This document shows positions 1 to 10,607 of a stretch of DNA of 39,576 nt, piece after piece. The position numbers were made by a program, and so were the translations under genes. The notes under the pieces were generated by a model. It was not told where the DNA came from. It did not search any database and was given only the letters and a program-made list of their open reading frames with translations. Every line of letters starts with the position of its first letter. The stretch's first letter is position 1. Origin of the DNA: Methanosarcinaceae archaeon (GTDB lineage Archaea > Halobacteriota > Methanosarcinia > Methanosarcinales > Methanosarcinaceae); the NCBI GenBank assembly GCA_020055655.1, contig JAIPUR010000025.1, positions 1 to 39,576 of the forward strand. Reading direction: 5' to 3'.

Positions 1-47
1 AGCGCAATAATTATAATAACGGCAACTAAATAATAGAATTTTTTCAT
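1..47 (-). CDS. N-terminus of an unidentified exported or membrane protein (partial)
   Basis: An ATG at 47-45 on the minus strand opens a frame that runs off the left edge. The 15 visible residues start MKKFYYLVAV and continue with a run of isoleucines, which looks like a signal peptide or membrane anchor. The gene lies 17 nt downstream of the Cache-like gene and in the same direction as the TolC-like gene. In efflux operons the next gene is often a membrane-fusion (HlyD-type) subunit, so that is my guess, but too little is visible to say. Confidence 0.45.
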   Translation of the reverse strand, partial: MKKFYYLVAVIIIIA

Positions 48-64
48 GATTAAAACTTCTTAAA

Positions 65-520
65 TCAATAAATAATTTTTAGCAATAACCAATTTGTTTC
101 TTTAATCTCTGCTTTGTAAATCGTATGTTTTTTTCCATCAACATAAAAATTTTCCTTAAAGGAACCTTTCAGTATTTTATGAATTGCTTCTCGCATCCCT
201 TTATTTTGATGCTTTGCTAACGGAGGAGAATTATACATTAAAATATTTTGAGTTACAGGTTTGTAATAAGAAAAATCACGATATGAAGGAATATGAAATC
301 GTTTAGATCCATGTTGGGTAGTACAGATAACATTTCCTTTGTTGTCGGTTAGTATTAAAACCCGTGTTTGATCTTTAAAATATTTTTCTAAAATATTTTT
401 TACGGGAATATCAGCTGACAGAATCCCAATAAATTTATCATGGTAATAAACCGGCACACTTAAAGATAAAAGGAGGCTGACTGCTAATAATAAACTGATA
501 ATAATCTTATTTGTTTTCAT
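65..520 (-). CDS. small exported Cache-domain-like protein
   Basis: This 151-residue protein has a hydrophobic signal or anchor at residues 5-24. The next part resembles the membrane-distal half of a Cache (PAS-like extracellular sensor) domain: YYHDKFIGILSADIPVKNIL, then LILTDNKGNVICT. A normal dCache receptor would be longer and carry a second helix plus a HAMP, kinase or methyl-accepting domain. Here the frame simply stops, so it is a free-standing or truncated sensor domain. The start is well supported: AGGAGGGG sits 8 nt upstream, and the ATG overlaps the end of the TolC-like gene by 14 nt, which suggests translational coupling. Such a strong Shine-Dalgarno fits a bacterium. The ligand is unknown; the link to efflux is inferred from gene order only. 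Confidence 0.6.
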   Translation of the reverse strand: MKTNKIIISLLLAVSLLLSLSVPVYYHDKFIGILSADIPVKNILEKYFKDQTRVLILTDNKGNVICTTQHGSKRFHIPSYRDFSYYKPVTQNILMYNSPPLAKHQNKGMREAIHKILKGSFKENFYVDGKKHTIYKAEIKETNWLLLKIIY

Positions 521-1583
521 AATTTAGCCCCTCCTTAAAATCACCTGTGCTCAAGTATAATTCTGCCAGACTGAGATAATAATCTATCTGAGCATGAGCA
601 TAATTGATTTCACTCTGGTAAAGATCAACCTGAGTTTCTAAAAGCTCTGTTCCGGTGATATAGTCCTCTTCAAAATATAATATTTTTACTCTCAGTGCTT
701 CTTCAAAACTTTCTATTAACTTCTGATAGCGCTCAATCTCTGCAGTACTGTCCTGATGATCAAGAAATTTATTATTGACATCAAGTTTTACTTTATCTTT
801 AATTAATTTAAGCTGGTTTTCAGCATTTTTAAGTTCATTTTCTGCTTCTTTTGCGTCTAAATCAGAGCGATAATCTCTGGCAGCAAGGCGGTAATTGATT
901 TGCTGAAGTTCTTTATTTGCCTCAGCTTCCTTAATCTCAATTCTCTTTTTTAAAGCAGTTTCAAAAAGTTTTTTTAGGCTTTCTTCCAACTGCCAATTTT
1001 TTAGTCTATTTTCTCTGAAATTAAGCTGCAGCTGATCTTCATAATCCATTTTCAAATTTTGTTTTACTTTAAATTCAGCTCTCTTTTTATTATTAACAGC
1101 TGCTTTTAAGTTACTGGCTGCAGTTTTTAATTCAACTTCTGCCTGCATTAAATCACTTTTAATTAAAATTCCCTGTTCATATTTCTCTTTGATATTTTCC
1201 AGTTCCTCTTCTAAAATTTCCTGATATTTCTGGTGAATAGCAATAGAATTTTCTGCTTTATAATAATTGAAAAATTCATTAATCAAATTTTTAGCAACTT
1301 GATCTCTGGTAATTTCTAAATTTCTCTCTGCTATTTCAAACTCTGTTTCTGCTTTTTTTAAAAGCAGTGGTGAAGGACGTACTTCCTGTTCTGCCATTTC
1401 TTTCGCTAAAGCAATTTCTTTAGCTTCCAGATTCATTTCAGCTTCTTTAACTTCTTCATTTTCCACCAGTGACTTCTCTAAGTAGCCCTGCATATCCAGA
1501 TCCGAATCAGCAGCTGAGACATTTAAAGTAATTAATAAAACCGCTGCTATTATTAAAAATATAAATAAGATTTTTTTTTGCAT
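507..1583 (-). CDS. TolC-family outer membrane efflux protein
   Basis: The 358-residue protein has a signal peptide (about residues 1-24, ending near VSAADS). Two long alpha-helical, Lys/Glu-rich stretches follow with heptad character (about 35-150 and 195-340), as in the tandem helical hairpins of outer membrane efflux (OEP) proteins. Such proteins form the outer-membrane channel of tripartite type I secretion or RND/ABC pumps. It is shorter than typical TolC (about 450), so part of one repeat may be reduced. AAAGGGGAT 6 nt before the ATG fixes the start. A perfect 20-bp palindrome lies just upstream, so TetR-type repression is likely. An outer membrane protein has no place in a methanogen envelope, which is one reason to think this block is bacterial. 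Lys/Glu richness and AT-rich codons suggest Halanaerobiales (inference). Confidence 0.75.
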   Translation of the reverse strand: MQKKILFIFLIIAAVLLITLNVSAADSDLDMQGYLEKSLVENEEVKEAEMNLEAKEIALAKEMAEQEVRPSPLLLKKAETEFEIAERNLEITRDQVAKNLINEFFNYYKAENSIAIHQKYQEILEEELENIKEKYEQGILIKSDLMQAEVELKTAASNLKAAVNNKKRAEFKVKQNLKMDYEDQLQLNFRENRLKNWQLEESLKKLFETALKKRIEIKEAEANKELQQINYRLAARDYRSDLDAKEAENELKNAENQLKLIKDKVKLDVNNKFLDHQDSTAEIERYQKLIESFEEALRVKILYFEEDYITGTELLETQVDLYQSEINYAHAQIDYYLSLAELYLSTGDFKEGLNYENK

Positions 1584-1603
1584 TTTAATCCCCTTTCATA
1601 TAC

Positions 1604-1623
1604 ATGAATGAATATTCATTCAT
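1604..1623. promoter_or_regulatory. perfect 20-bp palindrome, TetR-type operator ahead of the TolC-like gene
   Basis: The sequence ATGAATGAATATTCATTCAT is its own reverse complement. Its core TGAATGA-N4-TCATTCA recurs at 2076-2093 ahead of the cupin gene. Spacing and symmetry fit a TetR-family dimer site. It sits between the likely promoter and the Shine-Dalgarno of the TolC-like gene. No regulator gene is in the window. Confidence 0.7.
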
Positions 1624-1640
1624 ATAATTTAAATAATATA

Positions 1641-1660
1641 CCAGCTGCTCTCACAGCCGG
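1641..1660 (-). terminator. putative terminator hairpin after the cupin gene
   Basis: CCAGCTG and CAGCCGG can pair over 7 bp (one G-U) with a 6-nt loop. The flanks are A/T-rich on both sides, so it could work on either strand. It separates the cupin gene from the TolC-like gene; the T-tract on the minus strand is broken (TATATTATTT). Confidence 0.45.
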
Positions 1661-1697
1661 TTTTATTTTCTGTCTTTATTTTAATTAGAAAATTTTA

Positions 1698-2015
1698 TTA
1701 TAGTGATGGTGTTTTTATATTTAAAACTTCAAATTTTTCTCCCTGGTCAGCCTTTAATTCCATTTCAGTATTTGGAGGACAGGTTACAATTGTTCCTGCT
1801 TCTACAACACTTGACTCTTCACCAATTCTTAAAGTTCCTTTACCTTCTTTAATGTAGAAGAATACATCTACCGGTACCTGATGTGCTGGTACAATATCTC
1901 CTTCAGATAAAATAAGGTTCATTACCTGAGCATTATCATGTTTTAAAACTCCCTTAGCAATAACCCCTCTTTTGTTTTTATTTCCTTCTAACTCACTTAA
2001 TTTAATAATTTCCAC
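1698..2015 (-). CDS. single-domain cupin protein
   Basis: A small (about 105 residues) cupin beta-barrel protein. The stretch EGDIVPAHQVPVDVFFYIKE followed by GKGTLRIGEE and VTCPPNTEM follows the two cupin motifs. Motif 1 keeps one His (PAHQVP) and has Asp where a second His is usual, so metal binding is uncertain. The role is unknown; small cupins of this kind are often redox or metabolite sensors. I chose the GTG at 2015 as start because AAAGGA lies 9 nt ahead; in-frame ATGs at 2024 and 2033 are alternatives. The gene has its own bacterial promoter with CRP-like and TetR-like sites, and stands alone between a terminator hairpin and the junction with archaeal DNA. Confidence 0.7.
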   Translation of the reverse strand: MEIIKLSELEGNKNKRGVIAKGVLKHDNAQVMNLILSEGDIVPAHQVPVDVFFYIKEGKGTLRIGEESSVVEAGTIVTCPPNTEMELKADQGEKFEVLNIKTPSL

Positions 2016-2075
2016 AAAAATCATTCCTTTCATTTGAGTAAATATTACTAACGACTATATTATAAATCTCCAATA

Positions 2076-2093
2076 TGAATGATTGCTCATTCA
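2076..2093. promoter_or_regulatory. second TetR-type operator, cupin promoter
   Basis: TGAATGA-TTGC-TCATTCA has the same two 7-bp arms and the same 4-bp spacing as the palindrome at 1604-1623. It would cover about +2 to +19 of the predicted cupin transcript, a classic repressor position. The two sites probably answer to one TetR-family repressor. Confidence 0.65.
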
Positions 2094-2094
2094 C

Positions 2095-2144
2095 TAATAT
2101 AAGTATAGTACTTTGCTTTTGGTTTTGCTGTGATACAGCTCACA
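2095..2144 (-). promoter_or_regulatory. bacterial class II CRP/FNR-type promoter of the cupin gene
   Basis: TGTGA-TACAGC-TCACA at 2129-2144 is a perfect match to the CRP-family consensus TGTGA-N6-TCACA. On the minus strand a TATACT -10 box lies at 2107-2102, predicting a start near 2095. The CRP-like site is then centred at about -41.5, the class II activator position, where a good -35 box is not needed; none is seen. This is sigma70-style, not archaeal, promoter design. Confidence 0.5.
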
Positions 2145-2163: not shown

Positions 2164-5100
2164 TCAACTACTCCACTTAGACAATAAATCATTATAACCT
2201 TCTGACATCTCTTCTCGGCCTCCTACTTTGTCACCAACACCTTTTGGACCGGTGCCTACTACTGTAGCAGCATAGCCATTGAATCTGAATTTTATTGGAA
2301 TGTTATAACCTATCCACACCAAAACTCCACGTGTATCTCTTTCAAATGGATGATTTATACGTACATCTTCCCTCACATAAGTTTGCGCATCGTGTCCGAA
2401 GTAAGGATTTAACATACACTCATTGTCATTATCAGTGACTTCAAAACTACGATATTTTCCTACGACTTCATATTCCCATACATTAACCGTACAAACCCAA
2501 TGTGGCGGAATTACAGGTAAACCACATGGAACTAATTTCATAGACTTTTGCAAACGTGCTTCCATCTTGTCAGCAAGTTGAGCCGTGAGTTTGCCAGTAG
2601 ATTCATCCAGTTTGTTTTGAAGTTCATTGTTTATGTTCGTGAAACACTGGTCGATGGTTGCCTGACAGATAATTATAGATTCGGAGACTCCGTTTGCAAC
2701 ACCTATTCTGAGATCAGATTCGAGACGATAGAGAACAGCATCTATTTCATCGTTGTTTGGTGATGGATTATTTGATGTAATTCGCTGTCTAACACGTATG
2801 AGAATTTCTTCTTGCAAAGTTTTGTCAGCTACCATGCCTATGAGCTCTTCATCAGACAAAGAGTTCAGATAAACAGTTGTGATAGACCTTACTTCCGATT
2901 CACTGATCCATGAATTCATAATGGGATCGTTTATAATTTCCGACGCAAGCATATCTGGCACTTCATGGCGTATGCTTGTGCTGTATTCCGAGATCATTTT
3001 TGTGCGATTCTGCTCTATCAGTGAGGTGTCGGCTGAAATACCATTAGCAATAAGAACTGTGCGCTGAGATTGGATATCCAACATTAGTGAATCGACTTCA
3101 GTATTCATATCAGAAATACTCTGGCTCATGGATTGCGATATGGAAGCTTTTAGTGGTTCTGCACAATTGTTAAGCAATTTAGCAACATCATCGCCAATTC
3201 CTGTGGAGAAAACGCATGTGTTGCGTACACCAAGTGGGTAAACCTCCTTTCCAGTAATTTCATCTACCCACTTGTACTGGCTTTGCATATCAAACTCCGG
3301 GTCGTGGTAGAGATAATCAGGATACTGGTCAACAATGAGAGTTACGTTCTCGGTCCAGTTGTACTTGCTTTGAGGTTCACAGGTGACACTCATAGTTTCA
3401 ATGATACCCATTTCATTTGCAAGGGCTGTGGATGCTTTATCCATGGCAGGATTATCGAATATTAGATCTGTTGACACGCTGCCACCAACCATGTCCATGA
3501 GCTTTCCACCGGTTTCTGCCATGAATGATTCTTCCACATAATTGTTGAAGGAATCACTGATACCTTTATTCCGCTCCGTCATTTCATACAGCAAACGGTC
3601 GTATGCTTCATTTTTTACAATGGCACGACAGGCATCGTTGCTCGTATTGAACTGGGATTGGTTCATATGTTGATCTTGCTGTACAAATGATTCTCTTTTA
3701 GTTGATCCGGTCATTTCAGATGCCAGATCAAGTGAAGCTTTCTGGATCAGCTCAGTGGGATTTTTACCTAGGTTCTCGCCAAGCAGAGAAACATCCCTGT
3801 AGGGATCATCTGCATTAATGGCATTGAACATATCCTTCATTTCCAGTGCCATGTTTTTGTGTACCCATGAGGGAATTTCACAGTAAACCTTTTTTACAGG
3901 AATATAGCTGCCATTTGAGTAAAAAAGATGGTTTGCTTCTATTGATCCAATGCTTATATGATCCTCTCGGTATTTATCTGCAGCATCGGAGCAACATGTG
4001 TCAACTAAAGAAACACCATCAACAACTACCTGTGTATTTCTATAATCGTGTGAATTGCCCCCATTGTAACTGCTGCTAAAACCATTATAGCCACCTGATG
4101 GGAGGTATTGATGGTAAACGATACTTATATTTTCGGATTCTGTTTCTGTATGTGGAACAGATGCTATATTTTGCAAAGGATAATTAGTTCTGAAGCCACT
4201 GGAATCACCACTATGGAAGCTATAACCACTTTGAGAACTATAAGTCTTGTATGACCAGTGATACTTATAATAAATATTCCATCGGGTTTTTATTTTGAAA
4301 TTTATCTTGTAATTAACTCTCCAGTCGAAACTGTGATTCTCATTTTCTAAGTAACCATCCACACGTTTATTAGAGACAAGTGAATCATTTCCCAGATAAT
4401 CGTAAGTTACGTCGACACCCTCACGCGTAATATCATGGGATACAAGTTCAACCCTTGCATCTTTGTAGTACCATTTGTGCGAGGAAGCATCAATATTTAC
4501 TCTATGACTGATATCCAGTACTCCACTCCAATCATAGTTTGGCACAAGTGCACCATTATGAGATATTGAAACCGGGTAGTGCGCTTTCCAGTAAATGTTC
4601 TTTCCTGTTTTGGATTCCCCACCTTGCCAGGAAACCGAATCAACACTTGGCGTTCCTGCTCGTAATCCATAAGAGTTGACTACATCAAATCCATCTCTGA
4701 ACACCTGTCCCTGAACGTTCGCACTGTAAACCTCATGAGTCACATCATGCAAGAGGTCAGGATATGCACAATCCCATGGATCGATGAGAAGATTATCATT
4801 GTAAACCCATCCATAGTATACCTCATCCGTAAAATTCGATACAGCCACTGTGATCCTGGAATTGTTGGATATCTCTTCAATGCTTGTATTAGAATCTCTT
4901 AGAGATTCATTGATACTTTTTGAAACGCTAACATTGAATGATCCTTCATTGGAAAGTCCGTCATAAGTAGTAGATAGATTAGTTCCTTTTTCTACTTCAT
5001 AATTAGAACTGTCTCTTTTGACATCACTGTACAGGACCTTGCCGTTGTAATATGTAGTATATGCCAATGCCCACGGGTCAACCGAGTCAAATATCTTTTT

Positions 5101-6231
5101 CTGTGTATAGAGGCTGCCTGCATTCACGGATGAGGTCAATGAAGGAGAGGTTACGATATTCAGCGGACCATTGAAATAATGTTGCCACGGACCGTATGTA
5201 AAAGTGCGTATATTGGTGGCTCCCAGCACAATATCAGAAGTTGCTCTACCATTCAGAGATATTTCATACTCGTTGGTCATTTCCTCAAGCAGAGGCTCTC
5301 TTGATGTTATAACAGTGGAAATGTTCATACTACCATTATACATTTGTCCGTTTGAAATATCAACAAGAGAGTAATTGAGGTCATCAACTGACATAGTATA
5401 ATAGATAGTATATTCTGCTTTATCTTTTTCAGAACGCTCTAGTTCACGGTCAAGAGTACCGTTGATCTTGTCAATTCTTATTCTTGAGGAAGAAATATTC
5501 TGTTCTACATTTATAGCATAGCTGCTAAACGTGTGCAGATTATCCTGATAAGAAGCTGCTGTAAATTTGTTGAAATGATATGCAGTTATGTCTTTAACAG
5601 GGTTTGATGCTACACGAAACCAATTGGTTGCTTTAGTTTCATTCCCATAATTGAGTAACAAATAGGCATAGTCATCGTTTGCATTTGCAGGAATCCGAAT
5701 TGCTTCCTGAAATTCGGACTTGTGCCAGAATGAATGAAACTCGTCATAAACTATGGTTTGGTATATGGTACCTGATGAACCCTGAACAATTAATGTGCGT
5801 GGTTTTTCAGAAAAGATCGACACAATAGCTTCCAATACATTTGAGGGAAGAATGACAGATACATCCAACGAATCACCAGGTTCAACATCCCTAGTATCCA
5901 CAGTAAGGAAAAAACCATCTTTTCCCCATTCATCATAAGCAGTATCTTCTGGTTTTATAATTGGATGTTCACCCTGCCATTTCAATGCTTCCATACCTGC
6001 ATAGTTCAGGCAGCGTGCAAGATCAGCCGAAGCAAGGTCAAATGATGCTTTTTCCATATTACCATGATTGGTATCATAAATTGTTTCGGCAACTTCATAA
6101 TCCATTTTAGTTAGGTAAAAGGATGTTATTATTGAGACCAGAACTATGAGTATACCAATCACTGCAAAGGGAATATAGGCCTCGGTATCCTGCAATATAC
6201 CTTCGTTTTTACATTTAATTCGAAGAATCAT
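2164..6231 (-). CDS. very large membrane-anchored archaeal surface protein, pilus-like system
   Basis: A 1355-residue protein with one N-terminal membrane helix (about residues 20-42: AYIPFAVIGILIVLVSIITS) after a short charged head containing LQDTEA. The rest is extracellular by prediction, rich in Asn, Ser and Tyr with many N-x-S/T sequons, and contains long helical stretches around residues 1010-1230. No C-terminal anchor is seen. The head motif and helix resemble those of the four proteins beyond hisS, so I place it in the same system. Haloarchaea have a comparable gene set (DUF7284-DUF7288 families) near type IV pilus/secretion genes, and this would match the large DUF7286-type member; that is from memory and unverified. 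It is transcribed divergently from hisS, with a TATA box at 6281-6290. A minor pilin, tip adhesin or secretion-linked surface protein is possible. Confidence 0.6.
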   Translation of the reverse strand: MILRIKCKNEGILQDTEAYIPFAVIGILIVLVSIITSFYLTKMDYEVAETIYDTNHGNMEKASFDLASADLARCLNYAGMEALKWQGEHPIIKPEDTAYDEWGKDGFFLTVDTRDVEPGDSLDVSVILPSNVLEAIVSIFSEKPRTLIVQGSSGTIYQTIVYDEFHSFWHKSEFQEAIRIPANANDDYAYLLLNYGNETKATNWFRVASNPVKDITAYHFNKFTAASYQDNLHTFSSYAINVEQNISSSRIRIDKINGTLDRELERSEKDKAEYTIYYTMSVDDLNYSLVDISNGQMYNGSMNISTVITSREPLLEEMTNEYEISLNGRATSDIVLGATNIRTFTYGPWQHYFNGPLNIVTSPSLTSSVNAGSLYTQKKIFDSVDPWALAYTTYYNGKVLYSDVKRDSSNYEVEKGTNLSTTYDGLSNEGSFNVSVSKSINESLRDSNTSIEEISNNSRITVAVSNFTDEVYYGWVYNDNLLIDPWDCAYPDLLHDVTHEVYSANVQGQVFRDGFDVVNSYGLRAGTPSVDSVSWQGGESKTGKNIYWKAHYPVSISHNGALVPNYDWSGVLDISHRVNIDASSHKWYYKDARVELVSHDITREGVDVTYDYLGNDSLVSNKRVDGYLENENHSFDWRVNYKINFKIKTRWNIYYKYHWSYKTYSSQSGYSFHSGDSSGFRTNYPLQNIASVPHTETESENISIVYHQYLPSGGYNGFSSSYNGGNSHDYRNTQVVVDGVSLVDTCCSDAADKYREDHISIGSIEANHLFYSNGSYIPVKKVYCEIPSWVHKNMALEMKDMFNAINADDPYRDVSLLGENLGKNPTELIQKASLDLASEMTGSTKRESFVQQDQHMNQSQFNTSNDACRAIVKNEAYDRLLYEMTERNKGISDSFNNYVEESFMAETGGKLMDMVGGSVSTDLIFDNPAMDKASTALANEMGIIETMSVTCEPQSKYNWTENVTLIVDQYPDYLYHDPEFDMQSQYKWVDEITGKEVYPLGVRNTCVFSTGIGDDVAKLLNNCAEPLKASISQSMSQSISDMNTEVDSLMLDIQSQRTVLIANGISADTSLIEQNRTKMISEYSTSIRHEVPDMLASEIINDPIMNSWISESEVRSITTVYLNSLSDEELIGMVADKTLQEEILIRVRQRITSNNPSPNNDEIDAVLYRLESDLRIGVANGVSESIIICQATIDQCFTNINNELQNKLDESTGKLTAQLADKMEARLQKSMKLVPCGLPVIPPHWVCTVNVWEYEVVGKYRSFEVTDNDNECMLNPYFGHDAQTYVREDVRINHPFERDTRGVLVWIGYNIPIKFRFNGYAATVVGTGPKGVGDKVGGREEMSEGYNDLLSKWSS

Positions 6232-6280
6232 AGTTATGCCAAATAATTTTATACACAGTTTAGCTAGTCAGGGAAGAAAT

Positions 6281-6290
6281 GCATATAAAC
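6281..6290 (-). promoter_or_regulatory. archaeal TATA box for the 1355-residue surface protein
   Basis: On the minus strand GTTTATATGC forms a TATA box about 50 nt ahead of the ATG, predicting a start near 6260 and a leader of about 30 nt. The whole divergent gap 6232-6554 (323 bp) holds only this box and the hisS boxes; I see no RNA gene or credible ORF in it. Confidence 0.45.
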
Positions 6291-6457
6291 TTTATGATTT
6301 TGTTCAGAGCAATAGTAAAAAATAATATCTACTGATGAAAATAGACATCATTGTATATAGAACAAAAGGTCAAAAATATGATAGCATTAAAGTAAGTACA
6401 ATTTTAAGCATCTAAGAATTGATATATTTGCAAAACCAGAAATAAGATCAAATTAAT

Positions 6458-6485
6458 CGAAACTATAAAATAACCCGATATATAG
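6458..6485 (+). promoter_or_regulatory. candidate BRE/TATA boxes for hisS
   Basis: CGAAAC-TATAAAATA (6458-6472) looks like a BRE plus TATA box, and GATATATAG (6477-6485) is a second candidate. Either would give a leader of about 45-65 nt before the hisS ATG. I cannot tell which is used. Confidence 0.4.
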
Positions 6486-6554
6486 TATTCAAGCAGAATC
6501 AAAATAGGCAGAAAACTGCTTACAGTTAAATTCATCTTATCAGGTCGATCTACA

Positions 6555-7787
6555 ATGAAACTTAGCAAACCACGAGGAACAAGAGATTTTCTCCCAGAAG
6601 ATACAAAACGTAGAAGAAATGTAGAAAATATCTTACGTGGAGTAGTTAAGAACTGGGGTTTTGAAGAAATAATCACACCTACATTTGAGACTCTTGATCT
6701 TTTTACACTTAAATCCGGAGAAGGAATTATAGGAGAACTCTATAATTTTACAGACAAGGGTAACAGAGATATGACTCTTAGGCCTGAGCTCACCGCCCCG
6801 GTTATGAGAATGTATGTTAACGAAATGCAGGCAAGGCAGAGACCTATCAAATTATTCTATTTTGAGAACTGCTTCAGATATGAAAGGCCACAAAAGGGAC
6901 GTTTCAGAGAGTTCTGGCAATTTGGTGTTGAACTTATTGGTAGCAGTAAAGCTGATGCAGATGCAGAGGTCATTGCCCTTGCATACAAAATGCTGGAAGC
7001 AGTTGGCATCAAAGGCGACCTGCACATAAACAATCTTGGAGTAATAAGAAACCTTTTAAGTGTCCTTGAAACTGAACAGCAAAGCCGAATTATGAGACTT
7101 GTGGATAAAAAGGATTACACAGGTTTGGAAGAATATCTCGAAGAGATTAATGCTCCATCTGAGCTTAGAGTTAAGCTTCAGAGACTCATTGAGCTTACAG
7201 GGAACGATGCGATAGAGGAAGCCAGAAAACTCATTGGTGACATCCCTGAAATTAACGATTACCAAAAACTGATAGAACTTCTGGAAGCATACGGAATAGA
7301 GTACACTATTGATTTTGGAATTGCCAGAGGGCTTGATTACTATACTGGTGCGGTCTTTGAAATATATGCAGAAGGACTGGGAGCACAAAATCAGGTTTGT
7401 GGCGGTGGATCATACCAACTCATCAAATTATTTGGTGGGGGAGATGTCCCATCAACAGGGTTCGGACTTGGTTTTGATAGAATTATGGAAGTCTGTGAGA
7501 TAGAACCTGAAGAGTCCAGTTCTGTTGCTATTATCGCCAAAGATTCTACACGCCTGGAAGCAATAAAAGTTGCAAATGAACTTCGCCAGCATGTTCCTGT
7601 TTATGTGGACATCATGAAAAGAAACTTCAAGGCTCAGATGTCCTATGCCAATTATATAGAAGCCAGTCACAGCATAATAGTTGGTGAAAAGGAACTGGAA
7701 GAAGGAAAACTCACCCTGAAAGATATGAAGAGTGGTGATCAGGAATTACTTACTATTGAAGATATAATAGTAAAACTTACAGCATAA
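6555..7787 (+). CDS. hisS: histidyl-tRNA synthetase
   Basis: Class II aminoacyl-tRNA synthetase that charges tRNA-His in the cytoplasm. At 410 residues it has the usual length. Visible marks are the N-terminal [11 protein letters not shown], motif 2 region with [14 protein letters not shown], the HisRS-specific loop [14 protein letters not shown] near residue 260, and motif 3 [11 protein letters not shown]. The C-terminal 90 residues form the anticodon-binding domain. The ATG at 6555 is the only sensible start; there is no clear Shine-Dalgarno. Its stop is 6 nt before the first gene of the surface-protein run, so hisS is probably the lead gene of that operon. Confidence 0.95.
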
Positions 7788-7793
7788 GGTAGG

Positions 7794-8279
7794 ATGGTGC
7801 TTGTGCGCAGAAACTTGCTCGATGATGAAAGGGCTGCAGATGCCCTTCCCATGAAATTCGCTGCTGCAAGCATTGTACTTCTTATCCTTATTGTTCTTGC
7901 ATCCACAGCAGTTTCTTCATTACTCGAAGAAAAAAGCATTCATGATTGTGAAACTGCTATTCTTGAAATCGATTCGAATGCTAAGTTGATGTCTGCAAAT
8001 GGTGCAGGAAGTAAAATTACATTAGACATAAATATCCCTAAAAAAACATTACTTGTTCTTGGTGCTGTTCCTGATCAGGAAGCACTGTGGCCTGTTGATG
8101 CAAATAACTATTTTATACATACCAATAGCAGAGATATAATAGGCCAGTCCCTTGCATCTTATTCTAATAAGAATTTAACTGGTCCCATCAGCCTTGGACC
8201 AGGACCTCATTTACTTACACTGGAAAGTGTTAAAAGTTCTACTAACAATAGAATTTTTGTGAAGGTCTATGAAATTTAA
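7794..8279 (+). CDS. short single-pass membrane protein of the pilus-like cluster (first after hisS)
   Basis: The 161-residue protein has a basic head (VRRNLL), the motif DDERAADALP, then a membrane helix at about residues 24-43 (AAASIVLLILIVLASTAVSS). The outside part has about 120 residues with a beta-rich look and a GPISLGPGPHLLTL segment. It resembles archaeal pilin-like subunits in layout but lacks the classic class III signal peptide cut site. GTG codons at 7797 and 7803 are alternative starts; the ATG follows GGTAGG directly, so the last may be the true one. The next gene overlaps it by 11 nt. No known function. Confidence 0.6.
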   Translation: MVLVRRNLLDDERAADALPMKFAAASIVLLILIVLASTAVSSLLEEKSIHDCETAILEIDSNAKLMSANGAGSKITLDINIPKKTLLVLGAVPDQEALWPVDANNYFIHTNSRDIIGQSLASYSNKNLTGPISLGPGPHLLTLESVKSSTNNRIFVKVYEI

Positions 8280-8919
8280 GCAGAAAGCTGATAAAAGCCA
8301 GAATGAAAAGATAATCTCATTTTTTATTGAAGACCAGAGAGCCTGGATAGACCTTATAATTTCAAAAGCTTCCCTCATATTTGCAACTGTTATAATACTT
8401 GCAGCCGTTTACCACCTTGCTGGCGATTTTCAGGAACTTTCCAGAAAAGAGGAGTTAGACATAGCCACCCAGGAACTGGCATACATTATGAATTCTGTAG
8501 GTAGTGGCCAATATGGAACCCTTGGTTCAAAAAAGGAATACATTTTCAGCAGCTATGGAATAGATAAAAATGTATTCGACAGAATGAATGTTTCAGTTTC
8601 CGGAGAATATGTAGCAATATCATATCGGGAAAATAACAAAGAGATGATCTCAGCAGCACCACTTGTATACAAAACACTCTCTTATAGCCCCGATGAGCTT
8701 TCTATTAAGATGATAGATCAATTTTCTGCAAGTGGTAATGCAAGTGATCCGGTGACTTATCCACACAGACCTACAGATGTTTCTAAGTTCCTGGCAGAAC
8801 TTGGGACGAAAGAAGCAAACTTAAATACAAGTACTAAAGTACACATTGTAAAAACATTGATATGCTGCATAAATAATACTGAGGTAAAAGAGCTTGAATA
8901 CACCCTTGTTTATCAGTGA
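8269..8919 (+). CDS. single-pass membrane protein of the pilus-like cluster (second)
   Basis: 216 residues: a basic head, the motif FFIEDQRAWIDL, and a membrane helix at about 33-52 (SLIFATVIILAAVYHLAG), followed by an outside domain of about 160 residues. EELDIATQELAYIMNSVGSG just after the helix is amphipathic, as in pilin-like N-terminal helices. A CC pair lies near the C-terminus. Both ends overlap neighbours (11 nt and 26 nt), so the genes are translationally linked. Function unknown; the family may match the haloarchaeal DUF7287 type (unverified). Confidence 0.6.
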   Translation: MKFKQKADKSQNEKIISFFIEDQRAWIDLIISKASLIFATVIILAAVYHLAGDFQELSRKEELDIATQELAYIMNSVGSGQYGTLGSKKEYIFSSYGIDKNVFDRMNVSVSGEYVAISYRENNKEMISAAPLVYKTLSYSPDELSIKMIDQFSASGNASDPVTYPHRPTDVSKFLAELGTKEANLNTSTKVHIVKTLICCINNTEVKELEYTLVYQ

Positions 8920-9400
8920 TGATAATGCCTTTATGGAACCCCATAACGATATAATTTCAACATCTTTAGTCATCATCGGGTTTGTTGTATTTGCTGCCAT
9001 TCTTTCAAGCACGTATTTTGCTTTTGATGATAATTCCTATGCACTTGATAATTACAAACATGCATCGATGATAGCTAATGATATTGCCAATTATCAAAGT
9101 ATTCAGGGAAGCAGGGTCGACCTGATATCAGCTGAAAAACTGGATTTACTTTCCACACCAGCAAAAGATAAGGAAAAACATAGGACGTTCTTCCAACGCT
9201 TCTCAGGAAATATGGATCTTTCCGTAGATATTTCCACAAATGATGGAAAATACCATTGGACCATTGATAGAGATGAAAATCAGACCAGTAAAAATGAGAT
9301 TATAGCCGCCTCAGTACCTGTTGTTATTGAGCTTGGCAGCAATGTAAACTGTGCCCCAGGTACTTTAACTGTTAGTGTCCGTAAGAATAAATGGATATGA
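8894..9400 (+). CDS. single-pass membrane protein of the pilus-like cluster (third)
   Basis: 168 residues from a TTG start. I keep the TTG because GAGGT lies 8 nt upstream, and because starting at the ATG at 8933 would remove the SDDNAF motif that its sister proteins share just ahead of the helix. The membrane helix is at about residues 22-42 (STSLVIIGFVVFAAILSSTY). The helix that follows carries DNYKHASMIANDIANYQ, again pilin-like. The rest is a short beta-rich outside domain with one Cys. A gap of 28 nt separates it from the next gene. Confidence 0.55.
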   Translation: MNTPLFISDDNAFMEPHNDIISTSLVIIGFVVFAAILSSTYFAFDDNSYALDNYKHASMIANDIANYQSIQGSRVDLISAEKLDLLSTPAKDKEKHRTFFQRFSGNMDLSVDISTNDGKYHWTIDRDENQTSKNEIIAASVPVVIELGSNVNCAPGTLTVSVRKNKWI

Positions 9401-9428
9401 ATAGAGCGTTTTGAGAAAGGTATAAAAT

Positions 9429-10607
9429 ATGCGCAGGAATTACCGGATAAATGAAGATGCATTCTCATCCACACTTGATGCCATATTTTTCCTTGTGCTT
9501 GTTTCAATATCTGCAGTGATACTTCTACCAAATATCGCAGCTGAAGACCAGTACAGGACCACAGGATATATTTCTATCCAGGAAATGGATAAACATCTTC
9601 TGAATTCGATATTGAGCAGCAGAGTGGACTATTTCGAATATACATTCAAGCCAGCTGAATTGACAAACTATAATCTATCGCTACCTAATAATTCGATGAT
9701 GCGGAATGTTGAAGAAACTCTTTACCAAAAAGAACAGAAGCATAAAGCATTTGCAGATCTGCTTGCCGAAAGTCTTGTGCTGGGATTGGAGATGAAAGCA
9801 GAGAACAATCAAGCAAAAATCCTCAATCCAATGGCTTATGATCATGGTAGTGAAACAAAAAAAGCAATGCAGAACTATATGGAAAGTGAGATTGGTGGAA
9901 GATATAATTACAGATTGGAAGCTCGTTGGTATCCTGTTAATAAGTATATTGGAACTGAAATCATAATAGGTGATATGGCACCAGATGATGCAACTCGTCA
10001 GAGTACTAAAATATCATTACCACTTGAACCGGTATTTTCCAGAAACAATGTTTTTGAGTCAATGAATGATACCGTTTTCCAAAATGCACTTGTTTCAAGT
10101 GATCCGGAATATGAATTACGTAAAGGTTTCAACAATAGTATAAATGTAGCATCCACATATGCGGGAGAAACAATTACCGATATTATATTTCCTGCTGACT
10201 ACCTGAATACACTGACAAACACAAAGCTAGGCACTAATAGTGAACATTTGTCCCTGATATCAAGCCCCGAACAAAATACACAGAATCCTGAGTTGCTGCT
10301 TGCATTACAAATGATCAACTATACTGCAAATGAAGTATACGACATGAATGTAACTGTTCCGGAGCCACATGAAACTATTAATATAAACTTCATAGACATT
10401 GTCGAAACTGGTGTAATAAATAACAATCAAGCAAATATTGCTTCATTCGTCAGAGAGGATATGAAAAGTGAGATCAACCAGAGTATTTCAATTATCCTTA
10501 GTGAGAATGATAGTACAAAGAGATTGAAAATACGTGATCAGCAATTAGAATCAATATGCAGAAACTATGATATGGATGGAGCTGACATCACTTTATTCCT
10601 TTGGTGA
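9429..10607 (+). CDS. membrane-anchored surface protein of the pilus-like cluster (fourth)
   Basis: 392 residues. The head MRRNYRINEDAFSSTLDAIF carries the shared acidic-x-A motif and runs into a membrane helix at about 18-37. The outside part contains about 10 N-x-S/T sequons, helical segments at both ends, and no C-terminal anchor. AAAGGT at 9416-9421 serves as Shine-Dalgarno. It is the last gene of the hisS operon; the next gene, rpsO, has its own promoter. The STLDAIFFLVLVS segment recalls haloarchaeal DUF7284 proteins (memory only). Function unknown. Confidence 0.6.
   Translation: MRRNYRINEDAFSSTLDAIFFLVLVSISAVILLPNIAAEDQYRTTGYISIQEMDKHLLNSILSSRVDYFEYTFKPAELTNYNLSLPNNSMMRNVEETLYQKEQKHKAFADLLAESLVLGLEMKAENNQAKILNPMAYDHGSETKKAMQNYMESEIGGRYNYRLEARWYPVNKYIGTEIIIGDMAPDDATRQSTKISLPLEPVFSRNNVFESMNDTVFQNALVSSDPEYELRKGFNNSINVASTYAGETITDIIFPADYLNTLTNTKLGTNSEHLSLISSPEQNTQNPELLLALQMINYTANEVYDMNVTVPEPHETININFIDIVETGVINNNQANIASFVREDMKSEINQSISIILSENDSTKRLKIRDQQLESICRNYDMDGADITLFLW

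Follow-up and report, generated by a model that had tools for sequence, protein, structure and literature searches.

Archaeal type IV pilus modules in which an ATPase and a TadC-like membrane protein work with pilins encoded in trans have been described (Makarova et al. 2016; PMC4858521). According to the main text of that survey, the euryarchaeal subclade 4F combines pilins with class III-type heads, an ATPase plus TadC-like pair and a pilin set unlinked to it, the ATPase often carrying a Cys-rich N-terminal domain. The usual archaeal prepilin-peptidase site has G, A or S at position −1 and a charged residue at −2, right before the hydrophobic helix, and Haloferax volcanii cuts PilA1 and PilA3 at DA↓VS, the arrow marking the cut (PMC4371748). 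In bacteria, the minor pilin and PilY1 priming/tip complex of type IVa pili is encoded in one cluster that runs from several small pilins to a single very large protein (PMC7541494), and the PilV shufflon of IncI plasmids provides a minor pilus subunit with alternative C-termini, using inverted ends and a site-specific recombinase (PMC5430464). Two groups of surface-protein families meet at the locus described here: the sarcinarray (MAST) family (NCBIfam TIGR04209 and TIGR04204) is counted, and no more, in the one paper found that names it, and DUF7284–7288 were named in no paper found in the literature searched.

The stretch of DNA analysed here (the window; 39,576 nucleotides) makes up contig C17 of a Methanolobus genome of 2.48 Mb, the genus being taken from its closest relatives. 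Around hisS (6555..7787, + strand), which lies between A and B and is a neighbour only, outside the machine, are five open reading frames, labelled A to E, with the lengths and heads that the initial annotation gave them (LQDTEAY in A, DDERAAD in B, IEDQRAW in C, SDDNAFM in D and NEDAFSS in E), each head standing before one N-terminal hydrophobic helix. A (2164..6231, − strand) encodes a giant pilin-like subunit of 1355 aa matching DUF7286 (PF23957; Pfam E-value 1.8e-34). The other four, on the + strand, are also pilin-like: E (9429..10607; 392 aa) matches DUF7284 (PF23955; E-value 2.5e-8) and D (8894..9400; 168 aa, TTG start) matches DUF7285 weakly (E-value 0.015), while B (7794..8279; 161 aa) and C (8269..8919; 216 aa, in B-C-D-E order) are conserved families for which the profile search found no Pfam match. 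The suggested kinship with haloarchaeal DUF7284–DUF7288 proteins thus applies to three of the five. In the window's ORF list, a ribosomal protein gene adjoins E downstream. PHROGs and NCBIfam scans of A–E gave chance-level matches only and a plasmid collection yielded no relatives of A, of which an orthologue, whole or partial, turned up in 20 of the 24 further Methanolobus genomes covered.

The predicted prepilin-peptidase site of A is D-T-E-A↓Y, with the cut after A18 (6178..6189, − strand; alignment of 66–68 homologues). Homologue alignments place the corresponding sites at D-E-R-A↓A in B (7824..7835), D-Q-R-A↓W in C (8332..8343), D-D-N-A↓F in D (8918..8929) and N-E-D-A↓F in E (9450..9461), all on the + strand. 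The acidic-x-A motif pointed out in the initial annotation was kept in all five families in orthologues from at least 10 Methanolobus species, with consensus heads QD(T/E)xA↓Y for A, (D/N)ERA↓AD for B, DDxA↓W for C, D(D/E)xA↓F for D and DExA/G↓F for E. A or G stood at −1 in 61/66 homologues of A, 20/21 of B, 18/18 of C, 23/24 of D and 19/24 of E (141/153 overall), counts that cover Methanosarcinales, haloarchaea and one further family of the phylum; some of the exceptions are probably due to misplaced anchors or starts. At the other positions, wider relatives usually have D or N at −4, E, D or T at −3 and R, S or K at −2, where R, S, K or E is common among homologues of A. Four window proteins have a charged residue at −2 (E in A, R in B and in C, D in E); the fifth, protein D, has N there and its homologues have R or K. 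A crude scan of a sample of this genome returned 38 genes with an N-terminal hydrophobic segment, six of them with the motif, namely A, B, D, E and two pilin-like proteins beside pilus ATPases; it missed C. Judged from these sequences, the head shared by A–E is not a product of chance.

The initial annotation had taken this head to be different from the usual class III pilin signal, a view that other pilins do not bear out. The Pilin_N (major-pilin-type) protein of this genome reads MSKANQFLDEEDA↓VSPVIG (DEEDA↓VSPVIG), and KDTEA↓VTEVIG and SEEG↓VSVIFG are the heads of pilin-like proteins next to other pilus ATPases of the genome. Homologues of A–E carry RG or RA at the site, and also DERGVT; in haloarchaea, the homologue of D, assigned by position and sequence, reads RRGQ↓TEPIAAL, and D/E homologues are of this type or read DRA↓VST. 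Because the pilins of the same genome share the acidic-x-A/G head and the A–E homologues carry RG or RA, the alignments identify the head as a class III prepilin-peptidase site in a slightly divergent archaeal form, comparable to that at which PilA1 and PilA3 are cut. The strict FlaFind pattern accepted only E at the correct place and failed A, B, C and D, whose +1/+2 residues are atypical (Y, W, D) or which have N at −2. That four of five subunits fail it may be the reason why A–E have gone unannotated, and explains how the set came to look new.

Gene order and shared fate tie the five proteins together. The Methanolobus layout A←hisS→B-C-D-E→rps was kept in at least nine genomes, and hisS remained in place where A–E had been lost. 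In Methanoperedens-like genomes (L096, L099, L102 and L110) the genes form a contiguous operon in the order B-C-D-E-A, an order that recurs in another family of the phylum (L150 and L151; partial sets in L152 and L153). In haloarchaea, ATPase and TadC-like genes lie a few genes upstream of A, which D- and E-like genes precede; counterparts there were assigned for A, D and E and not for B and C, owing to unreliable ORF calls in these GC-rich loci. Decay was visible in one genome (G006), where hisS is still surrounded by remnants of A, B and E and no ATPase is present. There were two exceptions: one genome has lost A–E and kept the engine intact (G003), and in another B–E and the engine are present and A was not found (G028). 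The single operon in other lineages and the joint loss support the proposal, made in the initial annotation, that A–E belong to one surface machine. The two outcomes named there as refuting it were both looked for and neither was seen: homologue alignments keep the acidic-x-A residues, and the genes co-occur across genomes.

The window contains no ATPase or TadC-like gene, and the expectation that the engine would lie elsewhere was supported. The genome holds six pilus-type ATPases and one more distant, together with one prepilin peptidase (Arc_PepC_II, contig C3, G000:C3:50100-50375; E-value 1.1e-29). One of the ATPases, on contig C22 (835 aa; T2SSE E-value 3.9e-20), is followed by a 649-aa membrane protein and has no pilins around it. 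Every haloarchaeal DUF7286-linked ATPase matched it best, and a tree of these and genome ATPases grouped it with them, apart from five others of the genome (support 1.00). Its N-terminal extension contains Cys residues, as described for subclade 4F ATPases (PMC4858521), of which it may be a member. The 649-aa multi-helix protein had no Pfam or NCBIfam match and was missed by a T2SSF search of the genome; its haloarchaeal counterpart matched T2SSF weakly (E-value 0.05), and the two are homologous (G222; E-value 1.3e-51). From its position, its ATPase partner and this homology, the protein is a putative TadC-like platform.

The 649-aa gene is specific, occurring in one place per genome, and it tracks A. 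Among 40 relatives, 25 had both A and the engine gene, 12 had neither, three had the engine gene only and none had A only; among 40 further genomes, the engine gene was intact in 22/23 with A and in 0/17 without it. Overall, the engine TadC-like gene was intact in 47/48 genomes with A versus 2/32 without (Fisher p ~1.7e-18, a value inflated by kinship, for which it is uncorrected, although some losses can be seen to be separate). In three genomes lacking A (G006, G242 and G257), the engine gene was present only in broken form. A control TadC of the same genome (contig C26) was present in 34/34 good genomes and did not track A. In four order-level relatives, paralogues of the B family stood directly beside the engine TadC-like gene. 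No dedicated major pilin for the A–E machine was identified.

Two side observations were made. A cytoplasmic coiled-coil-like protein (start type MERPDVNGRIESFDQ.VRSLDRRLRAVERRLS), possibly an accessory factor, recurs beside the engine or B gene (L222 8180-8890, L219 5173-5838, L220 1440-2135 and L150 5082-5582). A stretch that matches the T2SSF profile (L161/L177; G000:C1:67757-68128) contains six in-frame TGA codons; it may be foreign, recoded or what is left of a decayed gene.

Behind A lies a partner. In 105/105 non-haloarchaeal cases judged, that is, those with the end of A and enough downstream sequence, a gene of about 200 aa of the sarcinarray/MAST family (NCBIfam) directly followed the end of A; seven further non-halophile copies had no called partner, several of them at contig ends. 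The protein has an N-terminal signal and an archaeosortase-type C-terminal sorting profile. A–E are not themselves members of this family, whose tie to DUF7286 and pilus genes distinguishes the present setting from earlier counts. The partner is not universal, since sarcinarray is missing beside the haloarchaeal A.

In Methanosarcina and some other Methanosarcinales, A and its sarcinarray gene are followed by units that consist of the C-terminal part of A and a different sarcinarray gene. All partial copies lay in tandem in the same orientation as A, and no inversion was found, in contrast to the inverted ends of the PilV shufflon; here the direct copies each have their own partner gene. What varies from cassette to cassette in relatives corresponds to the last 67 aa of A in the window (2167..2367, − strand). 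Across 24 Methanosarcina copies, A was conserved up to Y-V-R and divergent after it, with a tip core, F.GYA.T(I/V)VGPGPKGVGDK, conserved in all copies. The strongest example, from a metagenome bin (L087, 6360-13266), has a partial copy that is essentially identical to A for ~990 nt and then drops sharply, at the variable tip, to 57–69% identity through the tip and the sarcinarray gene. At L055, the partial copy is 91–99% identical for 270 nt, then about 50–65%, then 97–100% at the far end of the sarcinarray gene, and weaker forms of the identical-then-divergent pattern occur at L084 and L077. Other cassette sources include named strains (L084 and L076) and a one-contig genome (L154). For the 24 Methanosarcina units, tip and partner distances were correlated (Mantel r 0.56, p 2e-4; 0.59 with the upstream block held constant), whereas tip and upstream block were uncorrelated (r −0.03). 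This covariation fits exchange of tip and partner as one unit, although linkage alone could give it. In the Methanolobus profundi type locus (L047/L230, 12492-14976), four different sarcinarray genes stand in a row behind A with no partial A between them; partner arrays can thus grow without A cassettes.

The locus in the window departs from that of other Methanolobus genomes, where sarcinarray lies directly behind A: here A has no adjacent sarcinarray gene. The genome's own copy (145.9 bits versus a curated cut-off of 45, TIGR04209) lies near the beginning of contig C16, after a second C-terminal fragment of A (L057/L178; G000:C16, 1-929) with 73% DNA identity to the end of A over 312 nt. The genes after this unit (trpB-like and hel308-like) are those that follow the locus in G006. 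The C16 fragment with its sarcinarray gene may be a cassette or a broken second locus, and an insertion between A and this second unit is likely; both units lie at contig ends. In the window, the space beyond A holds a low-GC block (1..2100, − strand; GC 0.303 versus 0.39) of cupin, TolC/OEP-like and Cache-like genes, the TolC/outer-membrane-efflux-type gene (PF02321, E-value 2e-19) at 507..1583 (− strand) having its Cache-like and cupin neighbours at 65..520 and 1698..2033. The block, probably acquired from bacteria, sits in a single-membrane archaeon at the usual place of the partner gene of A. The OEP-like gene was rejected as a machine part, being of foreign composition and not conserved beside A; no relatives of it were found in the plasmid collection.

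Structure models gave outlines and no kin. In an AlphaFold2 model of E (pLDDT 74.5), a 47-residue N-terminal helix precedes a mixed strand/helix domain, and a model of an 895-aa A from Methanoperedens (pLDDT 82.9) has a long N-terminal helix and strands. Searches of the PDB with these two models (Foldseek, VIA-align) returned no convincing match to pilins or other proteins; the best Foldseek E-values were 0.13 (E) and 2.8e-3 (Methanoperedens A), the latter to TolC with a TM-score of only 0.06.

Genome comparison displays the conserved head, the operon and gene linkage, the joint presence and decay with the engine, and the anatomy of the cassettes. From these we propose, with a probability of roughly 70%, that A–E serve as prepilin-like subunits in a single archaeal machine of the type IV pilus kind, with a giant A bearing an exchangeable tip and with a distant engine. 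A–E would be inserted with the short acidic head inside and cut after the conserved A or G by the prepilin peptidase (PibD) encoded on contig C3. The freed N-terminal helices would pack into a short filament or pseudopilus, its assembly driven by the C22 ATPase and TadC-like pair, with B, C, D and E as minor or core subunits and A, by far the largest, as a tip subunit displaying its large outer domain. The order of subunits from small to large recalls PilY1 and its minor pilins by analogy only; A differs in having its own pilin-type head, and no sequence or fold similarity to PilY1 was detected. The last ~70 residues of A and the adjacent secreted, archaeosortase-sorted sarcinarray protein, which may contact each other, would together act as a recognition unit open to exchange. 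The downstream cassettes of partial A and sarcinarray in Methanosarcina and some relatives would then be spare recognition units, able to replace the active one in living cells by homologous recombination through the flanking near-identical sequence. The purpose may be adhesion or cell recognition, possibly virus evasion.

The same genes could instead build a type II secretion-like pseudopilus, a short piston of A–E that secretes or positions sarcinarray and other surface proteins, with no external pilus. We regard this as unlikely. In its favour, several pseudopilin-like subunits with one much larger recall GspK, the sarcinarray partner is itself secreted and encoded behind A in nearly all non-halophile loci, and no dedicated major pilin was found nearby. 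Yet the N-terminal signal and archaeosortase-type C-terminus of sarcinarray make a further exporter unnecessary in a one-membrane cell, and haloarchaea have the machine without sarcinarray. Far less probable is a polymorphic toxin-like system in which the end of A would be a toxin tip, sarcinarray its immunity protein and the downstream units orphan cassettes as in contact-dependent inhibition. Profile searches found no toxin domain, the tip keeps a conserved core in all copies instead of unrelated domains, and the partner, in place of a cytoplasmic immunity protein, is a secreted protein sorted to the surface, which also occurs where cassettes are missing and is absent in haloarchaea; in favour of a toxin system are a long protein with a variable end, an adjacent small gene, orphan end-plus-partner cassettes and the covariation of tip and partner distances. 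Fainter still is the chance that the head is an unusual, non-class-III sorting signal common to otherwise unconnected membrane proteins. Failure of four of the five window proteins in the strict FlaFind pattern speaks for such a signal, but the canonical pilins of the genome share the acidic-x-A/G head, the homologues carry RG or RA, and A–E share operons and fate.

The pilus-type reading of A–E places them close to what has been described. The initial annotation called the machine uncharacterised, which stands in part. As a kind, ATPase/TadC modules with pilins in trans were already on record in PMC4858521, and the locus shares with subclade 4F, as presented there, the class III-type heads, the pair of an ATPase and a putative TadC-like protein and the unlinked pilin set. 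It differs from 4F in that strict FlaFind would miss most of its subunits. The main text of PMC4858521 makes no mention of a giant DUF7286 subunit, a sarcinarray partner or cassettes. On comparative evidence, the system is real and conserved and is probably a variant of the archaeal type IV pilus machine, in which the cassette feature was unexpected.

The analysis joins DUF7284, DUF7285, DUF7286 and sarcinarray, all without an assigned role so far, and two unnamed families into one machine with an identified motor. It corrects the idea of a new sorting signal and shows why rule-based pilin finders miss such subunits. For methanogens and methane oxidisers, the locus offers a testable case of programmed surface variation that could govern aggregation, partner choice or virus attack. 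Tentatively, and at somewhat less than even odds, we suggest a diversity-generating pilus in Methanosarcinales, in which the A tip and the partner ectodomain would be swapped jointly by gene conversion from silent downstream cassettes, changing cell binding or virus binding. If true, archaea would have their own equivalent of the PilV shufflon and of silent-cassette variation in pilins, with an exchange unit of two proteins.
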